From Prosthecobacter sp. (lineage in GTDB: Bacteria; Verrucomicrobiota; Verrucomicrobiia; Verrucomicrobiales; Verrucomicrobiaceae), in NCBI GenBank assembly GCA_017853885.1, contig JAFMIR010000008.1, positions 1 to 64,000 of the forward strand: a stretch of DNA of 64,000 bases, in the 5' to 3' direction. Below, in pieces: positions 37,791 through 53,356 of this stretch. Below the pieces are notes generated by a model, which had not been told where the DNA came from, did no database searches, and was given only the letters and a program-made list of their open reading frames with translations. The number at the start of each line of letters is the position of its first letter. Positions within the stretch are counted from its first letter, which is position 1. The translations under genes were made by a program, and so were the position numbers.

Positions 37791-38663
37791 ATGAGCAAAT
37801 CTCTCAGCGGACAATGCATCGGATTCGTCGGTCTCGGTAACATGGGCTGGGCCAATGCACGCCATCTCCACGCAAACGGCGCAAATGTCACGGTCTGGAA
37901 CCGCAGCCCTAAGCCAGCAGAAGAGGCCGTGAAGCTAGGCATGAACCGTTCGGCTTCGTTGCCTGAACTCGCGCGCACGATCGGCCCCGGCATCATCTGC
38001 ATCAATTTGACCATGACCGATGTGGTGGAACAAGTCGTTTTCGGAGTCGGCGGCCTTATCGACGGGCTGCATCCAGAGGCTCTCATCATCGACTTCGGCA
38101 CCACGGGCGTGCCTCAGACCAAGGAATTCGCTAAAAGAGTCCACTGGGTGGATGCCCCCGTCTCAGGAGGTCAAGTGGGTGCGGAGGAGGCTACTCTTAG
38201 CATTATGGCCGGCGGTTCAGAGGCGGATTTTCAGCGGGCTCTTCCCGTGTTTCAGGCTTGTGGGAAAAACATCACTCACATGGGACCTAGCGGTAGTGGC
38301 CAAGTCGCCAAGCTAGCGAACCAGCTGATTGTGGCACAGACCATTGATGCCGTCGCGCAGGCCCTCCGAATGGCCGAACTCTCCGGCGTCGATCCTGCGC
38401 TTGTGCGAAAGGCCCTGCTCGGGGGCTTTGCCGAAAGCCGTATCCTCGACCTGCATGGTGACCGAATGATCCGGCGTGACTTTGCTCCCGGCGGCCGCGC
38501 AACGCTCCAACTCAAAGACGTGCGTTTGATGTGTGAACTCGCGGACAGCGTAGGTCTCGATTCTCCCACCCTCCGCAATTCACTCGCCCAGTGGGAGAGA
38601 TTCGTGCATGAAAAAGGCCTCGGTAATCTTGACCACAGCGGGCTTTTTCGCTTGTACGAATGA
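37791..38663 (+). CDS. NAD(P)-dependent 3-hydroxyisobutyrate dehydrogenase-family oxidoreductase
   Basis: A beta-hydroxyacid dehydrogenase of 290 residues. The N-terminal Rossmann motif is GFVGLGNMGWANARHL. Substrate-binding DAPVSGGQVGAEEATLSIMAGG and the catalytic-lysine region GSGQVAKLANQ are as expected, followed by the all-helical C-terminal domain. It could act on 3-hydroxyisobutyrate, tartronate semialdehyde or a related acid; the sequence alone does not decide. It is the last gene of clear chromosomal character before the island. Confidence 0.85.
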   Translation: MSKSLSGQCIGFVGLGNMGWANARHLHANGANVTVWNRSPKPAEEAVKLGMNRSASLPELARTIGPGIICINLTMTDVVEQVVFGVGGLIDGLHPEALIIDFGTTGVPQTKEFAKRVHWVDAPVSGGQVGAEEATLSIMAGGSEADFQRALPVFQACGKNITHMGPSGSGQVAKLANQLIVAQTIDAVAQALRMAELSGVDPALVRKALLGGFAESRILDLHGDRMIRRDFAPGGRATLQLKDVRLMCELADSVGLDSPTLRNSLAQWERFVHEKGLGNLDHSGLFRLYE

Positions 38664-38843: not shown

Positions 38844-39311
38844 TTGCCATTTTGCTACTTCACCCTCAAGGCCTCCAGAACGGCGGTCAGGCTGCGAAAA
38901 CTCGTTCAGAAAGGGTTCAAAATCAGGCCAGTAACGTTGGGGCAGCACCTGCGGTCTCGCAGGCTGGTCTTGAAATTGACCCAAGCTCAGGCTGCTGAAC
39001 AATTGAACACTTTGCGTGAACATTATGAGCGCTGGGAACGTGACGAGGTGGCTCCGACAGCCTCCTTTTGGCCTCGCCTCATCGGGTTCCTTGGCTCTTA
39101 TCCAATGGCCGTTCAGTCCCCGGCTGACCAGATCGTGATGGCTCGAAGGATCATGGGGTTGAGCCAGTTTGCCTTTGGTCGGAGGATTCAGGTCATCGCG
39201 AAAAATGTCCGCGAATGGGAGCACGGCGTGGCGAAACCCTCCCCGGCCATGCTCGCAAAAGTGCAGCAACTGGTGACTGACACTCCGGTTGTCGGACTGG
39301 CGCCCGTGTGA
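38844..39311 (+). CDS. two-domain helix-turn-helix (XRE-like) protein
   Basis: A 155-residue protein with two XRE-type helix-turn-helix regions: LGQHLRSRRLVLKLTQAQAAEQLN with a YERWERDEVAPT third helix, then ARRIMGLSQFAFGRRIQ with VREWEHGVAKPS. The start codon is uncertain; the ORF track uses TTG 38844 and no ATG lies upstream of the first domain. It lies at the left edge of the accessory island, overlapped by the long ORF that follows. A regulatory role is likely; its target is unknown. Confidence 0.6.
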   Translation: MPFCYFTLKASRTAVRLRKLVQKGFKIRPVTLGQHLRSRRLVLKLTQAQAAEQLNTLREHYERWERDEVAPTASFWPRLIGFLGSYPMAVQSPADQIVMARRIMGLSQFAFGRRIQVIAKNVREWEHGVAKPSPAMLAKVQQLVTDTPVVGLAPV

Positions 39312-39324
39312 TAGTCATCGGCCC

Positions 39325-42126
39325 GTGAAGGATTCAGGCACCTCTCTTATTACGGACAAAGCCTCTCTGTTGGCACTTGTAACAGGATTAGCCGTTGGGC
39401 TCTCGGCGGCACTCTTGAGAAGTTTCATCGTGACCATCCCCGGGATCATTGCTGGCACTCAGCTTCAACTCGTTTTGATTTTGACGCTGTCGGTGATCTC
39501 GGCGCTGGTGACAGTGATACTTGCCCGAAAGCAGTTCACGTCACGGTTTCATGCACCGGGCGAGGCGGGCCGCCTTGGAATTCAGGCGGGTGTCTTCTGC
39601 GCTCTTTGGGCTGGCGCAGTCCTTACCGCATTGGCAACATGGGACGCCAGCGGGGCGGACAGCGCCGCTCTGGATCGGGCACTGCGCTCGCGAATGTGGC
39701 TCGTCTGTGCAGTCAGCCTCGCCGCCCTGCTTCCGAGCGTGCTGTGTGGTTTTGTTGGAGGGTTGATCGGGGGGCAGCTGGCCCTCAGGAACTCGGCGAC
39801 GGCTCAGACTGGCGAGGTTCCAGCGACTTTTCCTTGGCTGCGATGGGTCAAAGTGGGCATCGCTGGGCTGGCCGCTCTTCTTATGGCGTCTCCCATCTCA
39901 TTCATCGGTCGAGCTCCGGTGATTGACCCACCTCGTGTGGTCGCGGCCCCTTCCATCGCTCCAACTCCACCGGCCCCTCCGCCGTTTCGGTATGATCCGC
40001 CCAAAGACATCAAGTCCGCCAAGATCGGCGAAATCCAACCCGACTTCACCAAAGTCATCCCTCAGGTGCAGAGGGACTGCCCCGTTGCCCTGTCGCCAGA
40101 CAACGTGATGCTCGCCTTTGGAGATGCGGCTGGATCGCAGCCCGCGATAGGCATTTTCGACCTTCATCGGTTCACCAAAACGGCATCCATTCAGGTTCCT
40201 TCCTTTCCTCACGGCAATCTGTCCTGGTCTCCAGATCAAAAATCCATCGCCTGCACGATTGGCGAAGGAAAATCGCGCCGTGTGTGGGTTGTGCGCATTG
40301 GCGAAAGCAAGGCCATCGAGTTACCGCGTCCACCTGGAAGAGACGTGCCGGGAGGTGATCTCCACTGGTGGCAGGATAGAGAACTTGCCTTCTTCCCATC
40401 TGATGAAGCGCCCCTGGCTTTCGATCTCGACAAGCTCGTTTTGCTGCCATTGGAAGAGTCGGCGGGATACAAGAAGCTCGACGACATCAGTAAAAGACTT
40501 TGGAAGGAAGGCCCAAGGGAGACTTGGCCGGGCCAGACGCATTGGAAGCTTGGAGTGCGCACTCTGATCACATCGGCTGTTCCGCCGTCGCGCCGCGAAC
40601 CAGACAGCCCCTGGCAGTTGTCCGGCCAGACTGTCTGTGCCTTCACTCACCCCAGCCTGCCCATCTCCTTTGGTCTCAAGTCTCTTGGCGTGGACGAAGG
40701 TGACAAGATTCTTTGCTCAGACGATGGCTCGAAGCTCATGCGCCTCATGAATGGAAAGATCGAAGTGACTTTCATGAAGCAGACGATCTGCCCCGACCTC
40801 GTCTTTGAGGTGGAGATGCCGCTGCCGGTCGATGAGATTGAAAACACGGGCTGGAGCACTCAGGTCAAAGAAAAGCAGCTTTGCCTGATGATCTACGCAC
40901 CCCTGAAAAATCCGCTCAATGATCGAGTCGTCGGACCTGACTACAATCAAGTGCGTGCGCTCACCCGCTTGCTGGAGTGGAAAGGACGCCAGGGTGTTTT
41001 TATCGTTCAGACCCATGATGGCAGTGTCCAGGCAGGCGATGTGGCCTCAAGCCTTCACTATTGGGAGCCGGGCAAGATGTCTGAGTGGAAGCCTGATAGC
41101 ACACGCAAGTGGTGGACCACTATCAAAACGGCTGGCTCGCCACTTCCTGCCAAGCTTCCAGAACTTCACACGCCGCAGCTCTTGGACTTAACCCAGGGCC
41201 CGTCCGTGATGATTGTGACGAAGGCCATCGAGAAGCCCCACGAGCCGCCTCCTCAGAAAGTGACAGAGGTCGCACCGCCACCTCAGCCTCCCGCGCCTCC
41301 TCCTCCGCCAGCCATCTCGGCAAGTGATGTGAAGGCGTTTGTCTCTGAGCATCATGCCAAAGCCTCAAAAGGCGACCTTCAAGGTATGATTGCAGACTAT
41401 GAAACAGTGGTGGACTTTCTCGACAAGGGACTGCTGACGAGAGACCTGATTGGTGCTGATGAGCGAGCGCATCGATCCAAGTGGCCGATCGGCAGCGAAA
41501 AGATCGTTGGTGAGATCCGCATAGTCCAAGAAGGAGGACTTTGGCAGGCGGAATACACAATCGAGTTCTACAACGAGAACGGAGCTGGTGAATGGCACAA
41601 GGGGCATGCGGACCTCACGCTCCGATTGAAGGAGACTGGCAAAACGCTCTCCATCACATCGCAACGGGCCAAGGTCTATGATGTGACGAATAGCAAGCAG
41701 GCACCGAAGGCTCCGGCAGCCGGGGCCGCTCAACAGCCCCAGGGCGTGCCGGTTAGCGTTCCCAAGCCTTGCTTTGTCGCAGTCACTCGTGCCAAGGACT
41801 TGGGACAAATCGAGTTCACCGATGAGATTAGTTTCGCGGGAACCCTCACCTGGCATCGAACGTATCGCGAACTCTCACCAGATGGGAAGGTCGTGAATGT
41901 TTGCCGCGCCATCTATGAAGGCAATGGAGGTGTGCTTCCCAACCGGCAGGGTGCCCGCATCTATGTCGGCTCCCAAGGCTGGCAAAGATCCATGGGAACA
42001 CCGGCATTTGTTCGTCTTTGCGAGCGAAGCGCTGCTGCTTTGGTTGGCAGGGCGTTCGTCTTCCAATTTACCCAGAATGGAATGATCGAGTCGAACACAG
42101 GAACCACTTTCAAACTGGTGAAGTAG
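39325..42126 (+). CDS. large membrane protein with propeller-like and NTF2-like domains
   Basis: The ORF track starts at TTG 39289; GTG 39325 avoids overlapping the upstream stop and is preferred, giving 933 residues. About five hydrophobic helices occupy residues 15-215, then a short proline-rich stretch. Residues 240-630 resemble a WD/TolB-like propeller (SPDNVMLAFGD, LSWSPDQKSIACTIG). A PPPP linker at about 638-662 leads to a roughly 120-residue NTF2/SnoaL-like region (HHAKASKGDLQGMIADYE) and a final uncharacterised domain. No catalytic motif is seen, and the family is not known to me. Confidence 0.55.
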   Translation: MKDSGTSLITDKASLLALVTGLAVGLSAALLRSFIVTIPGIIAGTQLQLVLILTLSVISALVTVILARKQFTSRFHAPGEAGRLGIQAGVFCALWAGAVLTALATWDASGADSAALDRALRSRMWLVCAVSLAALLPSVLCGFVGGLIGGQLALRNSATAQTGEVPATFPWLRWVKVGIAGLAALLMASPISFIGRAPVIDPPRVVAAPSIAPTPPAPPPFRYDPPKDIKSAKIGEIQPDFTKVIPQVQRDCPVALSPDNVMLAFGDAAGSQPAIGIFDLHRFTKTASIQVPSFPHGNLSWSPDQKSIACTIGEGKSRRVWVVRIGESKAIELPRPPGRDVPGGDLHWWQDRELAFFPSDEAPLAFDLDKLVLLPLEESAGYKKLDDISKRLWKEGPRETWPGQTHWKLGVRTLITSAVPPSRREPDSPWQLSGQTVCAFTHPSLPISFGLKSLGVDEGDKILCSDDGSKLMRLMNGKIEVTFMKQTICPDLVFEVEMPLPVDEIENTGWSTQVKEKQLCLMIYAPLKNPLNDRVVGPDYNQVRALTRLLEWKGRQGVFIVQTHDGSVQAGDVASSLHYWEPGKMSEWKPDSTRKWWTTIKTAGSPLPAKLPELHTPQLLDLTQGPSVMIVTKAIEKPHEPPPQKVTEVAPPPQPPAPPPPPAISASDVKAFVSEHHAKASKGDLQGMIADYETVVDFLDKGLLTRDLIGADERAHRSKWPIGSEKIVGEIRIVQEGGLWQAEYTIEFYNENGAGEWHKGHADLTLRLKETGKTLSITSQRAKVYDVTNSKQAPKAPAAGAAQQPQGVPVSVPKPCFVAVTRAKDLGQIEFTDEISFAGTLTWHRTYRELSPDGKVVNVCRAIYEGNGGVLPNRQGARIYVGSQGWQRSMGTPAFVRLCERSAAALVGRAFVFQFTQNGMIESNTGTTFKLVK

Positions 42127-42534
42127 ATGGGGAAAGCCTTCCCCTAGCGGCGACTGCGTGGGCCGCTACCCCTTCGAGCGGGGAGGTTTCCCCGCAACGC
42201 CCCTCGCTGTTCGACCTGCCTCAGCTCGCTCGATCTTCGATCCAGCTCACGCCACCGCTTTCCGAGGTGCATCAGTGATCGCTGCCAGCCTGCCGCAGGC
42301 TCCGCCTTTCATACCGCTCTGGCAGCGTTCCCCCATGCACATGTGGCCTCCCCGCCGCCAACGGCCCGTCTGGCATCGGCTCCTGCGTCGTCCGAATGGC
42401 AGACCAGCCGTTGCCCCGGCCTCCCTTGGCCGCGTCACCAGCGACGGAGGCTAGGCCAGTTCCTCCCCGCCTTTCCACGAGGACTAGCCCAGTATCCGTC
42501 ACCGGCCACGCGGGGGCACGGGTTCGGGAAAAAA

Positions 42535-42555
42535 CTTCGGCTGACCGAAGTCACG
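42535..42555 (+). repeat. palindromic repeat CTTCGG-CTGA-CCGAAG
   Basis: Reads ACTTCGGCTGACCGAAGTCAC. CTTCGG and CCGAAG are perfect inverted arms around CTGA. The core 12-mer CGGCTGACCGAA recurs in inverted form inside the rep gene (43937-43948) and directly at 47027. It may be a Rep, ParB or RHH-protein binding site. Confidence 0.55.
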
Positions 42556-42565
42556 GGTTTCACGT

Positions 42566-42574
42566 TATCCACAG
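42566..42574 (+). promoter_or_regulatory. DnaA box
   Basis: TTATCCACA matches the DnaA-box consensus exactly, 11 bases after the palindromic repeat and about 44 bases before the ribbon-helix-helix gene. The base GTTTCACG just before it resembles half of a canonical parS site. A single 9-mer could arise by chance, but the position beside rep/par genes makes a functional role plausible. Confidence 0.5.
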
Positions 42575-42617
42575 GGCGACATGACACACCGGGTCACCTT
42601 CATGGTATGATGAGGGT

Positions 42618-42815
42618 ATGGAAAAAATCGTGCGCAAATCAGCGGGTGTGAAGTTCGAGAGTGATGTGCTGGCGTTCATCGACCGGCTCGCTCGTGAGCA
42701 GCAGCGCAGCCGCAGTTTTATCATCAATGCAATCCTCAGGTGGTATTCCAAATGGCTCTCAGAACAGCAGGCCAAGGTCGAGGCGGAGCAAGATCAGCCG
42801 GTGATCCGGTTGTAG
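42618..42815 (+). CDS. ribbon-helix-helix DNA-binding protein
   Basis: A 65-residue protein. VKFESDVLAFIDRLAREQQRSRSFIINAILRWY fits the ribbon-helix-helix (CopG/MetJ/Arc) fold: a short strand contacting DNA, then two helices. Such proteins commonly repress plasmid replication or partition operons. It is 6 bases upstream of the rep gene and just downstream of the candidate origin, so control of copy number or rep expression is the natural hypothesis. Confidence 0.75.
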   Translation: MEKIVRKSAGVKFESDVLAFIDRLAREQQRSRSFIINAILRWYSKWLSEQQAKVEAEQDQPVIRL

Positions 42816-42821
42816 GCCACC

Positions 42822-44555
42822 ATGCAGAGCATTCTGGATCGAAAAGCACCGTTTCAAACATCCCAGGCTCCTGAGCCGGTGATTTCAGCGTTCGAGGGCT
42901 TCAAAGCACCGACATCCAACACCACCTACACGCCGAACCAGTTCTTCGATGTCGTCATCCCGCACTTCTCGCGGGGAGTCGTGCGCATTGTGGCCTACCT
43001 GCTGCGCAAAACGCTCGGCTGGTGTGATGCGAATGGGAATCCGCAGGAGGAGCAAATCGAGGTGACCTACTCGGAACTGGAGCGAAAGGCCGGCGTGAGC
43101 CGTGACATGATCCGTGGCGCGCTGGATGACGCGCTGACGGGTCACTTGTTCGAATGCGTGACCGAAGGCCGAGCGAAGCACGCGCACGATGCCGGGCAAT
43201 CCGCCTGCTACCAGCTCCGATGGTCATCCATGCCCTACACGACGCGATTGGAGCAATTTGAGGGCTTCTTTGAAGGCGAAGGCAATCGCACCGACATCCC
43301 GAACGAGTTCTTTGACGTGCTCATTCCCCATGAGCCGCTTTCCGTGATCAAAGTCGTCGGAGCGATCATCCGCCACAGCATCGGCTTTCAGGCGAAACAC
43401 GGCCGCCGTCGCCAGCAGGTGGCGCTGTCCTATCAGCAGATCGAGAACTACGCTCGCTTCGGTAGCCGCTCCGATCTCGCCAAGGCCATTCGCATCGCGA
43501 TGGAGAAGAACTACATCGTGCGGCTGGAGAGCGGTGTGTTCAGCCATGAGGCCACCGAGCGGCGGCGTGCCGTGTATGCGCTTCGCTGGTGCGATTTTCC
43601 GAACGGTCAGAAAAACGAACCAGCCGTCAATCAGTCAGAAATCCAGACCAGCATCAGTCCGATTTCCGCACCAGCGCATCAGTCAGAAATCCGCACCAAC
43701 ATTAAAACGAAACCAGGAAATGAAACTGGAAACAGCCCTGCGGCTGACACGCAGTTGAGAGACCGGCTTCTCGGCTTCGGCTTCAGCGAAAAGACCATCG
43801 CGAAGCTGATGCGGGAGCACAGCCGCGAGGAGATCGAGCAGCAGATCATCTGGATGCCAGACCGTGCACCAGCACGCAGTCCAGCGGGGCTGCTACGTCG
43901 ATCCATCGAGCAGCGGTGGCCCGCGCCGATGAAACTTCGGTCAGCCGAAGTCACTAGCGTGACGCAGGCCGGATGGGACTTCGCGCGATGCTTCTACGCG
44001 GCCTATGGCGGCAATCGAGGCGAGCCTGTGAATGATCCATCGCCACGCGAGGCGCAGACTGCGGAGAGCTTTGTGCAGCGATTGATCCGAGCCACGAGGG
44101 AGGAGGGCCACGCTGCCGAGTGGGGCCGTGAGCTGGGCAGCCTCGCACGCGAGCAGCGGCATCCGTTTCCATCGCTCACGCTTGCCATCCGCCAGCTTGG
44201 CGATGCCTTCCTCGTCCAGCGGGAAAAGCAGCGCCTCCAGGTGCAGCTCGCCAGCATCACGCAGAGCCGTGAGCAGCACGAGCAGCGCTTCCGCGATGAC
44301 TGGCTCCGCTGGCTTGCGGCCAAGGAGTCCGAGATGCGTGAGACGCGTCCCGAGGACTATCAGCGCTTCATCGCGCAGCGGGAAAGCGAGCGGTCAGAAC
44401 TCGCCGCCGATCCGAAGCCATGGTCGCGTCGCGTGCTGGAGCACTTCGACACGGACAACGCCCGCCTCGGTGCCTTCCGCCAGTGCTTCGGCCTCCCGCA
44501 CTTCTGGCAGTGGGACGCCGCCTTTAACAGCCAATCATTCAAACCAAACCCATGA
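42822..44555 (+). CDS. plasmid-type replication protein with duplicated winged-helix domains
   Basis: A 577-residue protein. Residues about 27-132 and 146-265 are two copies of one roughly 105-residue domain: TPNQFFDVVIP...VRIVAYLLRKTLGW and IPNEFFDVLIP...IKVVGAIIRHSIGF, each ending in Y.LRW. This is the phage-O/plasmid RepO-like winged-helix fold that binds an origin. The rest is basic and helical (EQHEQRFRDDWLRWLAAKE near the C-terminus) with no helicase motif. It is followed by parA with an ATGA overlap. The gene contains an inverted copy of the origin repeat at 43934-43954. Confidence 0.7.
   Translation: MQSILDRKAPFQTSQAPEPVISAFEGFKAPTSNTTYTPNQFFDVVIPHFSRGVVRIVAYLLRKTLGWCDANGNPQEEQIEVTYSELERKAGVSRDMIRGALDDALTGHLFECVTEGRAKHAHDAGQSACYQLRWSSMPYTTRLEQFEGFFEGEGNRTDIPNEFFDVLIPHEPLSVIKVVGAIIRHSIGFQAKHGRRRQQVALSYQQIENYARFGSRSDLAKAIRIAMEKNYIVRLESGVFSHEATERRRAVYALRWCDFPNGQKNEPAVNQSEIQTSISPISAPAHQSEIRTNIKTKPGNETGNSPAADTQLRDRLLGFGFSEKTIAKLMREHSREEIEQQIIWMPDRAPARSPAGLLRRSIEQRWPAPMKLRSAEVTSVTQAGWDFARCFYAAYGGNRGEPVNDPSPREAQTAESFVQRLIRATREEGHAAEWGRELGSLAREQRHPFPSLTLAIRQLGDAFLVQREKQRLQVQLASITQSREQHEQRFRDDWLRWLAAKESEMRETRPEDYQRFIAQRESERSELAADPKPWSRRVLEHFDTDNARLGAFRQCFGLPHFWQWDAAFNSQSFKPNP
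43934..43954 (+). repeat. inverted copy of the origin palindrome
   Basis: Reads ACTTCGGTCAGCCGAAGTCAC, sharing ACTTCGG and CCGAAGTCAC with the repeat at 42535-42555, but with the central CTGA inverted to TCAG. It lies inside the rep coding sequence. Confidence 0.5.
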
Positions 44556-45388
44556 ACATCATCACCGTCATCAATGCCAAGGGAGGTTGTGGTAAAAGCA
44601 CCATCGCCATGAACCTCGCCAGCGGCCTCGCACGTCACGGGCATCGGGTCCTGCTCATGGATCTCGATCCGCAGGCGCAGGTCACGCAATGGCTCGCCGC
44701 AGGGGATGGACTCACGCCGGAGGGCACGCTCGTGGCCGCTCTCACGCGCCAGCAATCGCTCTCCGAAGTCATCCAGCCCACCGGCTTTGAAAACATGTCC
44801 TTCGTCGCCAGTGCCGACGGCCTGGAGGACCTCGGGCGTGAGATCAGCCAGACGGAGGGCTATCCCTCCATGCTCACGCAATTGATCGCCGAGGAGCACA
44901 TCGCCGACCGCTTTGACTTCCTCGTCATCGACTCGCCGAACCAAATCTCGCCGATCATGGAGAACGCCATCTTTCCAGCGGACGCCTTCATCGTGCCGTT
45001 TGAAAGCACGAAGGCCGTGAAGAGCTACGCCAGCATCTACAAGCTGCTCGTGAAGCTCCGCCCGACCGCCGACTTCCGCATGCTGCATGTGCTGAGCAAT
45101 CTCACACGCCTGCCAGGCCTGCGAAAGCGCGTGCTCGCCCTGCTTGCGGATGACGGCATCCCATCGGCACGCAGCGAGATACGCTCCTGCGGATGGATGG
45201 CGCAGGTGGACGAGAATGGAGGCAGCATCTTCCACTATCGTCCGCTCTCCAAAGGAGCGCAGGACATGGCCGCCCTCGTCGAAGAGGTGCGGGACTTATT
45301 CACTAACGGGCCGCAGGCCCACGCGGAGACCGCCGCCGCATCGCCCGACCACGCGATGAGTGCGGAAGTCACCGCCCCAACAGCATGA
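44552..45388 (+). CDS. parA: ParA-family partition ATPase
   Basis: A Walker-type ParA ATPase of 278 residues. The deviant Walker A is NAKGGCGKSTIAMNLASGLA, the switch I region is LLMDLDPQAQVTQWLA, and Walker B is FLVIDSPNQ. These proteins move DNA on the nucleoid by ATP-driven gradients together with ParB bound to a centromere site. The start overlaps the rep stop and the end overlaps the parB start, each by four bases, indicating a tightly coupled operon. The C-terminus is a proline/alanine/threonine-rich tail. Confidence 0.9.
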   Translation: MNIITVINAKGGCGKSTIAMNLASGLARHGHRVLLMDLDPQAQVTQWLAAGDGLTPEGTLVAALTRQQSLSEVIQPTGFENMSFVASADGLEDLGREISQTEGYPSMLTQLIAEEHIADRFDFLVIDSPNQISPIMENAIFPADAFIVPFESTKAVKSYASIYKLLVKLRPTADFRMLHVLSNLTRLPGLRKRVLALLADDGIPSARSEIRSCGWMAQVDENGGSIFHYRPLSKGAQDMAALVEEVRDLFTNGPQAHAETAAASPDHAMSAEVTAPTA

Positions 45389-46233
45389 CCAAACTACCCG
45401 ATGGCAAAAGCCGTCTCGATCTCGTGAAGTCCGGCCTCACCGGCGGACTGCCAAAACGAGGCCGCTTCATTGTCAGCATCGACCGCCTTCTCGAAGACCC
45501 GGAGAACGAACGAAAAATCTTCCACAACATGGACGACATGATCGAGTCCGTGCGTCGTCACGGCATCATCGAGCCCATCACCGTCACCCAGGAGGGCGAC
45601 CGCTACCGCATCCTCACCGGCCACCGCCGCTTCCGCGCCGCCAAGGCCGTCGGCCTCACCGAGCTGGAGGTGCTCGTGCGCGAGCCGGATGATCAGATCA
45701 CCCGCCGCTTCAAAAGTCTCATCTCCAACATCCAGCGGGAGAACATCCCCGCCGTCGAGTTGGCGGAGACGCTTCACAGCCTGCTCAGCTCCGGTGCCGC
45801 CGCGTCTCAGCGTGAACTCGCCCGGCAGATAGGGAAGAGCGAGCAATGGATGTCCGGCATGCTCCGCGTGCTGGAACTGCCCGCACGCCTTCAGGAGGAA
45901 CTGCGTAGCACACCCGGCATCGGCTACGAGATGGCCCAGCGCATCGCGCAGGTGGGGGACTCGCAGTTTCAGGAGCAGCTCGTCACCGCCGCCGTGGCAG
46001 GGGAGAGCGTGGGCCGCATTCGCGAGCGCATCGCCAGCTTCCGCACCACCCAGGGCTCCACGTCGTCATCCCGACCCAAGACACGCACCAGCCAGCTCAT
46101 CCAGCTCACGCATCGAGAGGGGAGTTGCGTTGCCAGCCTCCGTGCCAAACGCGAACCCGGAGCCCAGGAAGCCATGCTGGAGGCCCTCCGACAACTCGCC
46201 GAGCAGGTGAGAGCGGACGACAGCCTGCGGTGA
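45385..46233 (+). CDS. parB: ParB-family partition protein
   Basis: A 282-residue ParB. The N-terminal ParB/Srx nuclease-like domain shows ESVRRHGIIEPITV, then YRILTGHRRFRAAKAVGL, with the conserved GERRxR-like segment in the form GHRRFRA. A helix-turn-helix region follows (ASQRELARQIGKSEQWMSGMLRVLELP). The C-terminal region is charged. ParB would bind centromere-like sites next to parA; the repeat at 42535 and 43934 is one candidate. Confidence 0.88.
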   Translation: MTKLPDGKSRLDLVKSGLTGGLPKRGRFIVSIDRLLEDPENERKIFHNMDDMIESVRRHGIIEPITVTQEGDRYRILTGHRRFRAAKAVGLTELEVLVREPDDQITRRFKSLISNIQRENIPAVELAETLHSLLSSGAAASQRELARQIGKSEQWMSGMLRVLELPARLQEELRSTPGIGYEMAQRIAQVGDSQFQEQLVTAAVAGESVGRIRERIASFRTTQGSTSSSRPKTRTSQLIQLTHREGSCVASLRAKREPGAQEAMLEALRQLAEQVRADDSLR

Positions 46234-46294: not shown

Positions 46295-46591
46295 ATGAGT
46301 TCCACCGTCGAACACATCCGCCAAGAGATCGACCAGCTCGCCCCTGATGAGATTCGGGAGCTTTTCACCGATCTCCAGCAGGAGTATCCGTTGCGGTTGC
46401 TTCAGGTCGAAGAGACTGCGCCAGACCTTTCCGACCTCAGTGAGGCTGACAAGGTGAAGCTCGAAGCCCTCCGCCAGGACATCCAGGCTGCTGCCGACTC
46501 CTTGGATCGTGGTGAAGGCATCCAGATCGATTGGGATGCCAAGCTCGCACGCCGACATCAGGCATACGCGGCACGTCAGGCCGCTAGCTAA
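46295..46591 (+). CDS. putative antitoxin (addiction-module protein)
   Basis: A 98-residue, acidic, mostly helical protein with a polar N-terminus (HIRQEIDQLAPDEIRELFTDLQQEY) and an acidic middle, ending in RRHQAYAARQAAS. The shape and position, five bases upstream of a RelE/ParE-type toxin, indicate the antitoxin of a type II toxin-antitoxin module. The segment GEGIQIDWDAKLARRHQ fits the usual antitoxin C-terminus that wraps the toxin. Confidence 0.65.
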   Translation: MSSTVEHIRQEIDQLAPDEIRELFTDLQQEYPLRLLQVEETAPDLSDLSEADKVKLEALRQDIQAAADSLDRGEGIQIDWDAKLARRHQAYAARQAAS

Positions 46592-46596
46592 AGCCC

Positions 46597-46893
46597 ATGT
46601 CAAACGTCACCTACTCAGAGCTGGCTGACCGCGACCTCGACGACATCTGGGATTACATCGCCCAGGACAGTGTTTTTCAGGCTGACAGGCTTTGGCAGCG
46701 CATGCGCGACAAGCTCGAATACCTCGCCAAGTGGCAGACCGTCGGGTGGCCACGCCCGGAACTCTCCAAAGGCTGCCGCAGCTATCCCTTCGGCAAATAC
46801 TGCTTCTACTTCCGGTCTTCTGACTCCGGCATCGAGGTGCTCAGGATTCTGCATTCCGCCCGCGATCTCGATCAGATCACCTTCCCTAAGTAA
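46597..46893 (+). CDS. RelE/ParE-family toxin
   Basis: A 98-residue toxin. SELADRDLDDIWDYIAQDS, LEYLAKWQTVGWPRPELSKGCRSYPFGKYCFYFR and IEVLRILHSARDLDQI follow the ParE/RelE fold: an opening helix, then antiparallel strands, with the VLRILHSARD segment being characteristic of ParE. ParE toxins usually inhibit DNA gyrase, RelE toxins cleave mRNA; ParE is the closer match. It lies five bases after the antitoxin, with a strong terminator following at 46936. Confidence 0.8.
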   Translation: MSNVTYSELADRDLDDIWDYIAQDSVFQADRLWQRMRDKLEYLAKWQTVGWPRPELSKGCRSYPFGKYCFYFRSSDSGIEVLRILHSARDLDQITFPK

Positions 46894-46959: not shown

Positions 46960-47026
46960 GCTTTTCAGACACCGTAGCGGCGATTGCCAATCGTCGAGCC
47001 AACCCTCAAAGACACCGTCAAAACTA

Positions 47027-47038
47027 CGGCTGACCGAA
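47027..47038 (+). repeat. third copy of the CGGCTGACCGAA 12-mer
   Basis: An exact match to the core of the repeat at 42539-42550, here flanked by ACTA and CTCGG rather than ACTT and GTCAC. Confidence 0.4.
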
Positions 47039-47160
47039 CTCGGACCTCAAGGACATCGACTGTCCGAAAAGCCTTGTTTGAGGCTATGAAGATGTCCTTG
47101 AGTCGGAAAAACAATATTCTGCGACACGCTTTTCCCCGGCCATTTCCGCTCTCCCGTCAT

Positions 47161-47625: not shown

Positions 47626-47710
47626 GTGAAAAACTGCCGATTCCCTTCATAATCAAAGCCTACGGCAGGCTGTGAATAACTGGCACGGTCTATGCCTAGA
47701 ATTGAGCAGT

Positions 47711-48814
47711 GTGACAAAACTGACATTTTATCCCATCGGACGAGCTGACTCGTATCTCATAGAAGTTGGCCACAAGTTGATTCTCTGCGACTACGCCAAC
47801 ATGGGGGGCGAAAAGGCGTGCGACCTCGCTAAATCTATCAAGGAAGACATGGGCTGGCCAAAACGAAAGAACATCGACGTAGTGGCAATCACCCATCTCG
47901 ACAATGATCATGTGAAGGGAGCTTCGGATTTCTTTTGGTTTGAAGCCTTTTCTAGTTATCAAAGCGATGAGAGGGTTAAGATCGACGAACTCTGGGTTCC
48001 TGCTGCGGTCATCACAGAGACGGCGCTTGATGAAACCGACGCCAAGCTGATCCGAGCAGAAGCCCGACACCGACTCAGAGCTGGCAACGGTATCAAGGTG
48101 TTCTCGGCTCCCGATATGCTTGATGCTTGGTTCGCACTGGAAAAGATCGATCCTGCCGACCGACGACACTGCATTGTAAACGCAGGTGGTCCTATCGACA
48201 CGTTCGATCTCGAACGTGACGGGGTTTCATTCTTCCCCCACTCCCCATTCGCACAGCGAGAAAATGGAAACCTTGTTGACCGCAACGCCGATTCTCTTGT
48301 CCAACAGGCTACCTTCAGAGTTGGAGGCAAAGACTTCTACTTGTTGATGACCGCTGACGTGACGCACACTGAACTCGATAGGATAGTTGAGGTAACCGAA
48401 GACCACGAAAACGACTCGAAGCTTGATTGGCACATCCTGAAGGTTCCCCATCACTGTAGCTATAAGGCGCTGGCCGACGACAAAGGGAGCCCAAAGACCA
48501 CGCCGACACCGCAAGTTACACGCCTTTTGAATCATGGTAAGAGCGGTTCCATAATGGTCATCACAAGCGGCCCAGTCCCGAGCGGTTTATCGGAGGAAGG
48601 AGCAATGCCTCCACACCCTGAGGCACTGGCGTGCTACGAGGAATGGAAAACGAAATTGAATGGAAGGATTGTAGTCACGATGTCCAACCCCAATGATTCA
48701 GCTCCATTGAGGACAATCATTGATATTGATGCGTTCGGCCCGAAGCTCCGCACCAACTACTCTTCGTCTGGTGCAGCAGTGATCACAGCTACTGTCTCTC
48801 CGCGTCATGGCTGA
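47711..48814 (+). CDS. ComEC-like metallo-beta-lactamase-fold hydrolase
   Basis: The ORF track starts at GTG 47672; GTG 47711 (VTKLTFYPIGRADSYLI) begins at the natural first strand, giving 367 residues. The metal motif is THLDNDHVKGAS (H62, D64, D66, H67), and ADVTHTEL and WHILKVPHHCS match the second half of the ComEC/Rec2-type MBL fold. No membrane helices are present, so it is a soluble relative. It could hydrolyse a nucleic acid or phosphodiester; this is not shown. The C-terminus ends in glycine (VSPRHG), and its stop overlaps the next start by eight bases. The family occurs beside E1/E2/JAB genes. Confidence 0.75.
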   Translation: MTKLTFYPIGRADSYLIEVGHKLILCDYANMGGEKACDLAKSIKEDMGWPKRKNIDVVAITHLDNDHVKGASDFFWFEAFSSYQSDERVKIDELWVPAAVITETALDETDAKLIRAEARHRLRAGNGIKVFSAPDMLDAWFALEKIDPADRRHCIVNAGGPIDTFDLERDGVSFFPHSPFAQRENGNLVDRNADSLVQQATFRVGGKDFYLLMTADVTHTELDRIVEVTEDHENDSKLDWHILKVPHHCSYKALADDKGSPKTTPTPQVTRLLNHGKSGSIMVITSGPVPSGLSEEGAMPPHPEALACYEEWKTKLNGRIVVTMSNPNDSAPLRTIIDIDAFGPKLRTNYSSSGAAVITATVSPRHG

Positions 48815-51125
48815 TCTCAGCCCAGATCTGCGACATCGTTGTGATGAAACCTTCGGAGCTGTTGTTGCCGCGAATCTGTTGCGATTCCCGCGCGCAATTG
48901 AGGTAGTCTCATACCTCACGATGGCAGATCGTGGTCCATTTGTTCGTTTTGTTGAGGCAAGAAGATTGCCATCCCAGCCCGAGCGCGAAGCTATCATCGT
49001 CGAGTTAGCTCCCGAACTTGGAACCGAACGGGTGGTAGACATCCACTACACCGAATTCTTCGCCTTAGTCTTTGATGAACGTGACGAGCGCTATCCACGT
49101 GCGTTAGCCATCCGTGAAAACTTTCCTCGCCCTATTCACCTCAACTTCGAGGTAAGTGAGTTTTCGAGCTGCGCTTCGCTTTGCCTATACGATCAGCCTT
49201 GGGGAGACATCAAGCTCACTTGGACACCAAGACAATTTCTGAACCGCATTGGTGAGTGGTTGACGAAGGCGAGTCAAGGAGCACTGCATGCACCGAACCA
49301 AGCTTTGGAGTGCTTCATGGTTTTCTCAGGGATCACGCTAGTGATGCCTCACGCGTTAATGCAGGCGGTTTCGAACCGGCCTTTGGTTGCCTTGAACCTC
49401 CAGCCAATATCACGCCCTGGGGAGAGTTGGATGGTATTTCGATCCCTTTACAATCAAAATCAACCCGATCCAAAAGCAGATGGATACAGCGTCATCACTC
49501 AATTTAAATGCCCACCTGTAACTCACGGCTTGATCAAAGCGTGTCCAACGAACTTAGGCGAACTGGACGAACTTTTCAGGGCTGCAGGATGGAGCTTAAT
49601 CAATGAATTCTCTGAGAGAATCAAAGGGGATCCTGGATTGATCAACACGGCAAGTCGCGGAGATGCCAGAATGATCATCATGCTAGCGGTTCCCATGAGG
49701 AGAGAAGACGAAAGTGAACCTGAGCGAACGGATACTTGGGCCTTCCAGATGACACACACTCTTGGTGAGTTTGCCGAAGCGGTCGGCTTGGTAGCCCGAG
49801 CCCCAGGTGGTGCACAATACCTACCGCTTGTGGGACAGGCAAAGCCTGAAGTCGTCGCACCCGCGTTGGCACAGAGTAGGATCATACCAATGCGAGTGCT
49901 TGAATCAATAGATCGAGCAAAAGCCGCGAACTTCACCGGTGAAACCTCACACTACGACGGCAGAGTTATAGCAGTCGGCGCAGGAGCATTGGGGGCACAA
50001 ATAGTGCTAAATCTTGCAAGGGGTGGTTTTGGCTTTTGGACTATAGTGGACGAAGATATTGTTCTCCCTCACAATATAGTTCGTCATTTTGCCCCTTCAG
50101 ATTGGATTGGTTGCTCGAAATCGGCAGCCCTTCACGAAGTCGTGAGCGGGCTTTATGACCAGCCCGAGTTTCACAGATACATTCATGCAAATGTCCTGAG
50201 CGCGACTCCTGATCAAAGAGAAGCACTCAACGAAGCAGCATCCAAAGCTGACCACATCTTTGATTTTTCTGCGTCGGTGAGTGTTGCTCGCTATCTTTCG
50301 GCGATGGACTGCGTTGCGCGACGTTCTTGTGCGTTCATAACTGCGTCTGGGAATGACCTGATCGTAATGAGTGAGGATGTGCAGCGAACCGTCAAGCTGG
50401 ACTGGTTAGAAATGGAGTTCTATGCAGCGCTAATTGCAGACGAAGATCTCTCTGCATCCGTAAGTGGTTCCGCAACAAAGGTTAACTATGGCCTTGGTTG
50501 CCGAGATCGTAGCGTAGTCCTTTCTCAAGATACCGTGGGTATGTATGCCGGTATAGCAAGCCGAGGTTTCCGACAGATCATCAACTGCGACAGCGCCAGC
50601 CTGAAGCTATATCAAATCGAAACACAGACGGGCTCAGTAAGCTGTCGTAGCATTAATGTTGAAAAGCCATTTGTTCACGTTGCTGGTGGCTGGGAGATAC
50701 AATACTCACGCAAAGTTGCTGAATCGATTCAATTGCTAAGACAATCCAAGCTGCCAAATGAGACTGGCGGGGTTCTTCTCGGAACTTGGGACGTCTCGCG
50801 CAAGCGTTGCTATGTGTATCACGCATTGCCAGCCCCAAGGGACAGCAACGAAGCACCAGATTATTTTGAACGCGGGTGTGAGAGCCTTAGCGCAAATATT
50901 GAAGTTCATAGCCGTCGAACCAACGGCATGACCACATATGTTGGGGAGTGGCATAGTCATCCGCGTGGCGCGTCAACCCTACCTAGTTGCCTTGACGTTA
51001 ACGCTGCACTTTGGTTTCAATCGCAACTCCAAGATGACGGCCTGCCTTCGGTGATGTTCATCGTAGGTGACGATATGCGGCCTCGAATAGTATGTGCATT
51101 TTCGATTAACCACGCCACCTCCTGA
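48807..51125 (+). CDS. E2-E1-JAB triple-domain protein (ubiquitin-like conjugation/deconjugation)
   Basis: A 772-residue fusion. Residues about 1-170 resemble the bacterial E2 (UBC-like) domain, with SCASLCLYDQPW giving candidate catalytic cysteines C122 and C126. Residues about 385-620 are a ThiF/E1 domain: Rossmann GAGALGAQIVLNLARGGFG, then VDEDIV, NIVRH and a CSKSAAL lysine; GCRDRS may hold the E1 cysteine. Residues about 640-770 are an intact JAB/JAMM metalloprotease with ETGGVLLG, HSHP at 716-719 and SCLD at 727-730. The parts match the activation, transfer and removal steps of a ubiquitin-like pathway, but no ubiquitin-like protein was found. Confidence 0.8.
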   Translation: MADLSPDLRHRCDETFGAVVAANLLRFPRAIEVVSYLTMADRGPFVRFVEARRLPSQPEREAIIVELAPELGTERVVDIHYTEFFALVFDERDERYPRALAIRENFPRPIHLNFEVSEFSSCASLCLYDQPWGDIKLTWTPRQFLNRIGEWLTKASQGALHAPNQALECFMVFSGITLVMPHALMQAVSNRPLVALNLQPISRPGESWMVFRSLYNQNQPDPKADGYSVITQFKCPPVTHGLIKACPTNLGELDELFRAAGWSLINEFSERIKGDPGLINTASRGDARMIIMLAVPMRREDESEPERTDTWAFQMTHTLGEFAEAVGLVARAPGGAQYLPLVGQAKPEVVAPALAQSRIIPMRVLESIDRAKAANFTGETSHYDGRVIAVGAGALGAQIVLNLARGGFGFWTIVDEDIVLPHNIVRHFAPSDWIGCSKSAALHEVVSGLYDQPEFHRYIHANVLSATPDQREALNEAASKADHIFDFSASVSVARYLSAMDCVARRSCAFITASGNDLIVMSEDVQRTVKLDWLEMEFYAALIADEDLSASVSGSATKVNYGLGCRDRSVVLSQDTVGMYAGIASRGFRQIINCDSASLKLYQIETQTGSVSCRSINVEKPFVHVAGGWEIQYSRKVAESIQLLRQSKLPNETGGVLLGTWDVSRKRCYVYHALPAPRDSNEAPDYFERGCESLSANIEVHSRRTNGMTTYVGEWHSHPRGASTLPSCLDVNAALWFQSQLQDDGLPSVMFIVGDDMRPRIVCAFSINHATS

Positions 51126-51878: not shown

Positions 51879-52078
51879 CAGACGCCTTCATGCTATACTA
51901 ACTTCACCCTTCAGCCGTCGAGGCCAGTTGCCGTTACCCGCCTGGCTCGATCCAACAGACGTTTGCCGGGTGACTTTCCGGGCGGGCACCCATTTTGACG
52001 AGGGGGTGATCTCTGGCCCGGTTTTCATTCATGTTCCTTTCTGGAGCGGCGGCTGGCCTGGGCGGCGTGAACATAGCC

Positions 52079-53356
52079 ATGAACGAACACGATCTTCACA
52101 TCGGCATGAGGCATGTTTGGGGCGGCGAGCAGCCGTTTGGCTTCGACCTGGCTGATGCCCGCTACCACACCTACATCATCGGCAAGACGGGCTCCGGGAA
52201 GACCACGCTCCTGCGCAATCTCATCCTCCAGCTCATCCAGCAGGGCCACGGCGTCGGTCTCATCGACCCGCATGGCGATCTGGCGGAGGATTTGCTGCTA
52301 CACATCCCGCCGCAGCGGGCCGAGCAGACGGTCTATTTTCACCCCGGCGACCTCGGTCACCCCATCGGCCTCAATTTGCTCGCCCAGACCGCGCCGGAAG
52401 ACCGTCACCTCGTCGCCTCCGGCATCGTGAGCGCCTTCAAAAGCCTGTGGCAGGAAAGCTGGGGGCCGCGGCTGGAATACATCCTGCACAACGCCATCGC
52501 CGCGCTGACGCATTGCCCGAACACCACGCTCCTCGGCCTGAATCGCCTGCTCACCGACGCTGCCTATCGCCGCTGGGTGGTGAACCAGATCAACGATCCC
52601 TTCCTGCGCGACTTCTGGGAGAACGAATACGAGAGCTGGGAGCCGCGCTTCATGCGCGAGGCCATCGCACCCATCCAGAACAAGGCCGGCCAGCTCCTCC
52701 TCTCCCCCGTCATCCGCAACATCATCGGTCAGGTGCGCAGCAAGGTGAGCATCCCCTTTGTCATGAACGAGGGGCGCATCTTCCTCGCGAACCTCTCCAA
52801 AGGTGAAATCGGCCACGACAAGGCCAACCTGCTCGGCTCCCTGCTCATCACGCAGTTCCAGCTCGCCGCCATGGCCCGCAATCGCCAGCCCGAGTCTGAG
52901 CGTCGCGACTTCTACCTCTTCGTGGATGAGTTCCAAAACTTCGCCACCGAGAGCTTCACCTCCATCCTCGCCGAGGCGCGGAAATACCGGCTCAATCTCA
53001 CGCTGAGTCATCAATACATCGCCCAGCTCTCTCCCACCGTGCGGGAGGCCGTCTTTGGCAATGTCGGCACCCTCGTCGCCTTCCGCGTCGGCTTCGCCGA
53101 TGCCGAGCATCTGCACGGCGAGTTTGGCGAGGAGTTCCACCAGCGGCAATTCGTCGATCTCCCACGCTACGAGACCCTCATCCGCAACCAGTCCGCCAGC
53201 GGCTCCATCCACTTCCAGCGCACCCGTCTCTCCCCGCCCATCGAGACGCACCAAGGCCGCAAAGCCAAGCTCCTCCGCCGCTCCCGCGAGCGCTTCGCCA
53301 CGCCGAGAGCGGAGGTCGAAGAGAAGCTGAAGCGGTGGTTGCGGCAGGTGGATTAG
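52079..53356 (+). CDS. HerA/TraD-like DNA-pumping ATPase (type IV secretion-like)
   Basis: Starts at MNEHDLHIGMRHVWGG (52079); the 16 upstream residues look spurious. The 425-residue protein has a Walker A GKTGSGKTTLLRNL (about residue 35) and Walker B YLFVDEFQNF, with a LSHQYIAQL segment typical of HerA/VirB4/TraD ATPases that couple ATP hydrolysis to DNA or protein movement. It lacks N-terminal membrane helices. No relaxase or mating-channel gene is in the window, so its transfer role is uncertain; it may be a cargo of the island. Confidence 0.75.
   Translation: MNEHDLHIGMRHVWGGEQPFGFDLADARYHTYIIGKTGSGKTTLLRNLILQLIQQGHGVGLIDPHGDLAEDLLLHIPPQRAEQTVYFHPGDLGHPIGLNLLAQTAPEDRHLVASGIVSAFKSLWQESWGPRLEYILHNAIAALTHCPNTTLLGLNRLLTDAAYRRWVVNQINDPFLRDFWENEYESWEPRFMREAIAPIQNKAGQLLLSPVIRNIIGQVRSKVSIPFVMNEGRIFLANLSKGEIGHDKANLLGSLLITQFQLAAMARNRQPESERRDFYLFVDEFQNFATESFTSILAEARKYRLNLTLSHQYIAQLSPTVREAVFGNVGTLVAFRVGFADAEHLHGEFGEEFHQRQFVDLPRYETLIRNQSASGSIHFQRTRLSPPIETHQGRKAKLLRRSRERFATPRAEVEEKLKRWLRQVD

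Follow-up and report, generated by a model that had tools for sequence, protein, structure and literature searches.

The 490 bp immediately upstream of a rep gene in a Verrucomicrobiaceae chromosome are crowded with inverted repeats, and the question is whether they form one replication origin. The window is the whole stretch of DNA that was analysed (64,000 nucleotides). A first-pass annotation of its letters had grouped hairpins, a palindromic repeat, a half-parS-like motif and a DnaA box at 42127-42617, upstream of RHH, Rep, ParA and ParB genes, into the origin of an integrated plasmid or chromid. Comparison with related loci indicates that the control region is probably composite: a rep-par module and a separate hairpin unit linked to establishment genes, carried together on an integrated plasmid-like element.

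Synteny with the nearest relative (G028) runs through the gene at 37791-38663 and ends at its stop codon (~38659), which marks the left edge of the island. Its genes in the window, all on the plus strand, are:

38844-39311, plus strand: HTH protein, the first gene of the island
39289-42126, plus strand: c4, a 945-aa protein with possible membrane and TolB-like propeller parts, immediately preceding the three-hairpin core (EL)
42618-42815, plus strand: RHH (ribbon-helix-helix) protein, 65 aa, with conserved homologues, one of them annotated as RHH
42822-44555, plus strand: Rep, 577 aa, with conserved homologues and an annotation in a related replicon
44552-45388, plus strand: ParA ATPase (Pfam, NCBIfam, PHROGs)
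45385-46233, plus strand: ParB with ParB_N and HTH_ParB domains (Pfam, NCBIfam, PHROGs)
46295-46893, plus strand: toxin-antitoxin pair, the second gene encoding a ParE-type toxin
47672-51125, plus strand: defence cargo, a 6A-MBL fold protein and an E2-E1-JAB protein
52031-53356, plus strand: VirD4/TraD-like coupling ATPase

The anti-phage 6A-MBL protein scores 307 bits against NF058524 (cut-off 220). This system occupies a cargo slot that holds different cargo in other elements. Beyond the window, the contig encodes ArdC, Replic_Relax, a DnaG-like primase, a second coupling-like ATPase and a 517-aa serine recombinase of the large type between 75.2 and 85.1 kb. In close relatives ArdC immediately follows the coupling-like ATPase; here 21.7 kb of other genes (contig 53360-75110) lie between the two, the product of an insertion, a rearrangement or an assembly join, and the mobile element seems to have been split apart. 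The integrase and transfer genes, the patchy distribution and the synteny break identify an integrative mobile element. A search for the empty site resolved the left boundary alone; the right-flank gene was not found in six relatives. A search of the contig for att sites, near 38.6-39.0 kb and 84.9-86.0 kb, found no direct repeats of at least 11 bp, and a search for circular contigs by terminal overlaps found none.

The genuine replicon module spans 42526-46233 and consists of the RHH, Rep, ParA and ParB genes. All four gene calls of the first-pass annotation proved right: Pfam, NCBIfam and PHROGs identify ParA and ParB, and homologues identify the RHH protein and Rep. No Pfam or NCBIfam family covers Rep, and its structure prediction is poor (pLDDT 48). 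A PDB sequence search returned chance matches only. The two halves of its N-terminal part (~100 aa each) are homologous to one another (30% identity, E 6e-16), forming a tandem duplicated O-like domain, and the first half weakly matches a phage O-like PHROG (E 0.04). Its gene position, these halves and the annotation of a homologue suggest that Rep may be the initiator. The module is found in 19 of 143 related genomes with a patchy distribution, and the order RHH-Rep-ParA-ParB is kept wherever the locus is complete (15 loci). It is usually followed by a toxin/antitoxin pair and then by variable cargo. The putative initiator gene adjoining parA and parB is the arrangement of a replicon. Like repABC and other Rep/ParABS modules, the locus holds replication and partition genes in one block with partition-like sites inside; unlike them, its Rep lies outside the Pfam and NCBIfam initiator families and the order is rep-parA-parB.

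The same four genes in the same order occur on a circular record of 42,586 bp, ON073792.1 (L060, L182), which is labelled Aphanizomenon phage Yong-DA. Its Rep is 36% identical over 95% of the length, and a DnaA-like box lies upstream of the module, as here. It differs from the locus in its exopolysaccharide genes and its palindrome, and EL was not found on it. The annotation lists exopolysaccharide genes, a recombinase and hypothetical proteins and no phage structural genes; the record therefore resembles a plasmid and looks like one mislabelled as a phage. The existence of this circular relative supports autonomous replication indirectly. The same Rep occurs in two more phage-labelled records of equal length. 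The parB gene of ON073792 holds a 20-bp palindrome, GTGTTCAGACGTCTGAACAC (L060 23198), with closely related copies near L060 587, 4799 and 16937, and this palindrome is likely its parS. A free plasmid with the same module had been suggested as a check, and neither PLSDB nor IMG/VR yielded one that encodes this Rep or a close relative of it.

Between the hairpins and the module genes, and further downstream, lie the candidate control sites:

42534-42551, unstranded: palindromic site 1, ACTTCGGCTGACCGAAGT (ACTTCGG-N4-CCGAAGT, 18 bp), a candidate ParB, Rep or RHH site
42565-42573, plus strand: DnaA box TTATCCACA, 45 bp upstream of the RHH gene
42582-42597, unstranded: inverted repeat TGACA...GTCAC, overlapping the conserved stretch TTCATGGTATGAT
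43934-43951, unstranded: palindromic site 2, within rep, the exact reverse complement of site 1 in many loci
47023-47040, unstranded: palindromic site 3, degenerate, ACTACGGCTGACCGAACT, at the same place in related loci

By its letters alone the DnaA box is not significant, since six matches with at most one mismatch were found versus 7.0 expected. The box is nevertheless real and conserved: 13 of 15 loci carry it without mismatch, and the remaining two differ at a single position. Identity over the 15 loci is 98% for the DnaA box, 81% for the palindrome, 93% for the TTCATGGTATGAT stretch and 81% for the RHH gene, against 50-64% in the remaining intergenic DNA. Conserved origin motifs thus lie upstream of the replicon genes. 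The DnaA box and palindromes fit a replication and partition control region, in which Rep and DnaA would initiate replication at or near the box; an AT-rich unwinding stretch was not identified. The TGACA/GTCAC repeat (identity 0.70) is a candidate operator or promoter of the RHH gene, through which the RHH protein might repress the operon.

The palindrome is highly non-random. Two exact sites occur in the 4.27-Mb genome, both in the module, one 288 bp ahead of the start of rep and the other 1112 bp into the gene, and the spacing is the same in relatives. Related genomes carry 0-3 copies, nearly always within the module, and just one of seven genomes lacking the module has a copy. In several loci the degenerate third site lies behind the toxin gene. 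Palindrome variants change in step at each locus: in L050 the upstream site reads ACTTCAGTCGCCCGAAGT and the site within rep is its exact reverse complement, and L058, the second module in the same genome bin, has ACTACGGGCGACCCAAGT twice. This is the trace expected of a locus-specific binding protein. ParB is the preferred candidate for that protein, with Rep less likely. That the palindromes are instead Rep iterons or RHH operators is a possibility to which we give roughly one chance in three. One palindrome lies upstream of the RHH gene, the first gene of the module, and another lies inside rep, as that reading would have it; however, the sites within rep and behind the toxin gene better suit a spread-out parS, and the 20-bp palindrome of the circular relative has one copy in parB and others, related to it, at further places on the record. 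The genome bin with L050 and L058 (G002) holds two Rep modules with different palindrome variants, as compatible replicons would show.

The half-parS-like motif GTTTCACG at 42557 proved to be a chance match: three near-parS matches were found versus 2.1 expected, and the segment lacks conservation (49% identity). The match of the palindrome to the chromosomal parS (TGTTTCACGTGAAACA) is likewise at chance level. GC skew does not turn at 42 kb, and the chromid reading is not supported. What stands of the proposed plasmid-origin layout is an integrated replicon with a conserved DnaA box and palindromes, backed by the synteny break, the patchy module, the mobile-element genes and the circular relative; the hairpins as origin, the half-parS and the chromid lack support. 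The reading of these genes as the replication and partition functions of a plasmid-like mobile element, now part of a Verrucomicrobiaceae chromosome, is well supported. The analysis also documents, in Verrucomicrobia, an integrated replicon that carries defence cargo, together with three candidate sites for partition.

The hairpins occupy the ~400 bp between c4 and the first palindrome:

42127-42525, plus strand: whole hairpin region (~400 bp), found elsewhere with the HTH gene and c4 and without Rep
42129-42203, plus strand: EL core, 75 bp, with hairpins at 42129-42144, 42147-42166 and 42178-42195
within 42129-42203, plus strand: conserved unpaired parts of EL, the ACCCCTTC spacer and the CGCAACGCCCC tail (43 distinct copies aligned)
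42267-42340: further inverted repeat
42359-42413, plus strand: hairpin A, inverted repeat GTCTGGCAT/ATGGCAGAC
42430-42513, plus strand: large nested hairpin B, an inverted repeat with 31-nt arms and the conserved loop CCTCCCCGCCTTTCCACGAGG

The hairpins exist and exceed chance. The first 84 bases fold as DNA at -22.6 kcal/mol versus -15.9 in shuffles (z -2.75). In 25 verrucomicrobial copies of EL, 97.7% of the cells in 19 pairs are paired, compensatory changes affect seven pairs, and double-changed cells number 35 versus 9.2 in shuffles (0/500). The consensus fold around hairpin B has compensatory double changes in 12 of 21 pairs. EL is present in 21 of 143 related genomes. Its 43 distinct copies share a sharp 5' boundary and a conserved core, and their upstream flanks are unrelated. 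EL also occurs in intergenic DNA of alphaproteobacterial plasmids and of one Treponema plasmid. A covariance model built from verrucomicrobial copies only recovers these plasmid copies with E 1e-5 to 1e-9, and the copies therefore constitute one EL family. Rfam covariance models gave no match up to E 1, and no significant matches were found in viral contigs (exact-pattern scan) or in phages or E. coli genomes (blast). The literature searched contains no earlier description of EL, which seems to be a cross-phylum structured element not described before.

In other elements EL precedes plasmid establishment genes and lies on their strand. ArdC is the first co-oriented gene within ~600 bp in 9 of 43 cases, and the others include DUF932, DUF6876, DUF6908, DUF2958, a toprim protein and a helicase. 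On the upstream side, the divergent gene is never ArdC (0/45) and is often an AbiE-type, Fic or other defence or toxin gene. The difference between the two sides gives a Fisher p of 0.001 when ArdC alone is counted and of 7e-7 for a group of families that was chosen after the data were seen, and both p-values overstate independence because EL copies are related by descent. ArdC loci were also collected by Pfam, so that their selection was independent of EL; 13 of these 30 loci have a full EL, in all 13 upstream and co-oriented. The hosts include several Verrucomicrobia families and Alphaproteobacteria. ArdC genes linked to Rep modules mostly do not have their own EL.

Plasmids that enter a cell as single-stranded DNA require some genes immediately. 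Two arrangements are known upstream of such early-entry genes, folded single-stranded promoters (Frpo) and hairpin-rich EGeRS1 regions (PMC11541004, PMC8708921). EGeRS1 of the Bacillus plasmid pLS20 is rich in inverted repeats, is multi-copy and immediately precedes ardC and other establishment operons (PMC8708921), and EL is similar in these respects. EGeRS1 regions measure ~400-600 bp, and the hairpin region here measures 400 bp. EL differs in belonging to other phyla, in its short and tightly conserved core and in sequence: the EL model has no match in pLS20 at E values of 10 or less, and blastn gives chance matches only. The Frpo/ssi promoters of the F and ColIb-P9 leading regions are folded and lie upstream of leading-region establishment and anti-restriction genes (PMC11541004, PMC9849209). 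Like EL, they have several copies per element on the same strand as the genes, and the polarity is compatible; unlike them, EL has three separate GC-rich hairpins and no -10/-35 recognisable by eye, the comparison being by position only. The likeness of EL to EGeRS1 of pLS20 and Frpo of F is in position only.

EL has the position, polarity, copy number and folding suited to a role in single-strand entry. It may be an establishment switch, active when DNA enters as a folded single strand, that provides a promoter or a priming site to the operon behind it, and at the present locus it would serve rep-par in place of ardC. Against such a switch, EL lies ~415 bp upstream of the RHH gene in the window with another candidate promoter between them, and it has no -10/-35 recognisable by eye; the ArdC genes of Rep modules that mostly have no EL, and the stand-alone hairpin units described below, also count against it. 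We tentatively propose, at clearly less than even odds, that EL represents a new class of control element, folded as DNA or RNA, in Verrucomicrobia, Alphaproteobacteria and a Spirochaete plasmid that turns on or primes ardC, rep-par and similar operons at single-stranded entry. EL now has a defined consensus of 75 bases and a covariance model that works, for an element tied to establishment genes outside the well-studied enterobacterial and Bacillus plasmids, and this makes it directly testable how hairpin-rich regions upstream of ardC work. EL is also usable as a marker for the entry regions of mobile elements.

EL might instead act in RNA, as a leader or read-through blocker whose hairpins stop upstream transcription or regulate translation, the mode suggested for EGeRS1 of pLS20; we consider this somewhat unlikely. 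The element is upstream and co-oriented, its unpaired stretches are conserved, the spacing to the ardC start is 85-87 bp in alphaproteobacterial plasmids, and one EGeRS1 region of pLS20 was shown to block read-through (PMC8708921). Against this, the distance to the gene varies from 85 to >400 bp. G-U wobbles are also rare on the sense strand of EL (4/475 cells). Over both structures, G-T wobbles number nine on the plus strand versus 18 on the minus strand, a difference that is suggestive only, and the rarity of wobble pairs on both strands leans weakly towards DNA.

Whether the hairpins belong to the origin was judged from loci that have one part and not the other. Six genomes have a c4-EL unit that adjoins no Rep (the HTH gene was detected in two of the six), and in five of them homology was traced to window ~42525, just before the palindrome. 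EL further occurs in genomes that have no Rep (G008, G013, G018, G024, G062), and elsewhere it precedes ArdC. Conversely, six Rep modules have no EL (L042, L044, L045, L048, L051, L054). The hairpins are separable from the replicon: EL and hairpin B are found away from Rep, and EL is missing from some Rep modules. A single plasmid origin of the iteron or hairpin type, in which every hairpin takes part together with the palindrome and the DnaA box, is improbable on these grounds, although everything lies within the 490 bp, several c4-bearing loci preserve the whole hairpin-to-control block at 63-70% identity, and hairpin B is retained in most Rep loci. The c4 gene was rejected as part of a fixed origin unit, being found alone with hairpins. 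In the stand-alone HTH-c4-hairpin units (L109, L110, L111, L113, L114), the downstream genes are conserved and the upstream genes are variable; an establishment gene was not recognised downstream.

Least probable is that EL is a recombination or attachment site at cassette borders, its position reflecting module insertion rather than regulation: tandem co-oriented copies, a frequent location between defence cargo and establishment genes, the sharp 5' boundary with unrelated flanks and Rep-locus homology breakpoints inside the hairpin region would suit such a site, but no recombinase consistently adjoins EL, no integron-type core sites were seen, and the side and strand relation to ArdC is strict across divergent hosts. 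An integron or attC array was rejected, with no integrase among the neighbours scanned (Fic, AcrB, TIR, Sel1 and ArdC beside the tandem copies); inspection of the EL consensus by eye showed no RYYYAAC...GTTRRRY pair. The tandem copies, from two genomes, are 0.75-4.7 kb apart. On the Phenylobacterium plasmid pA (L151 28823-29641), a second, shorter trbB is followed 13 bp later by EL and then by Fic, E2 and ThiF genes.
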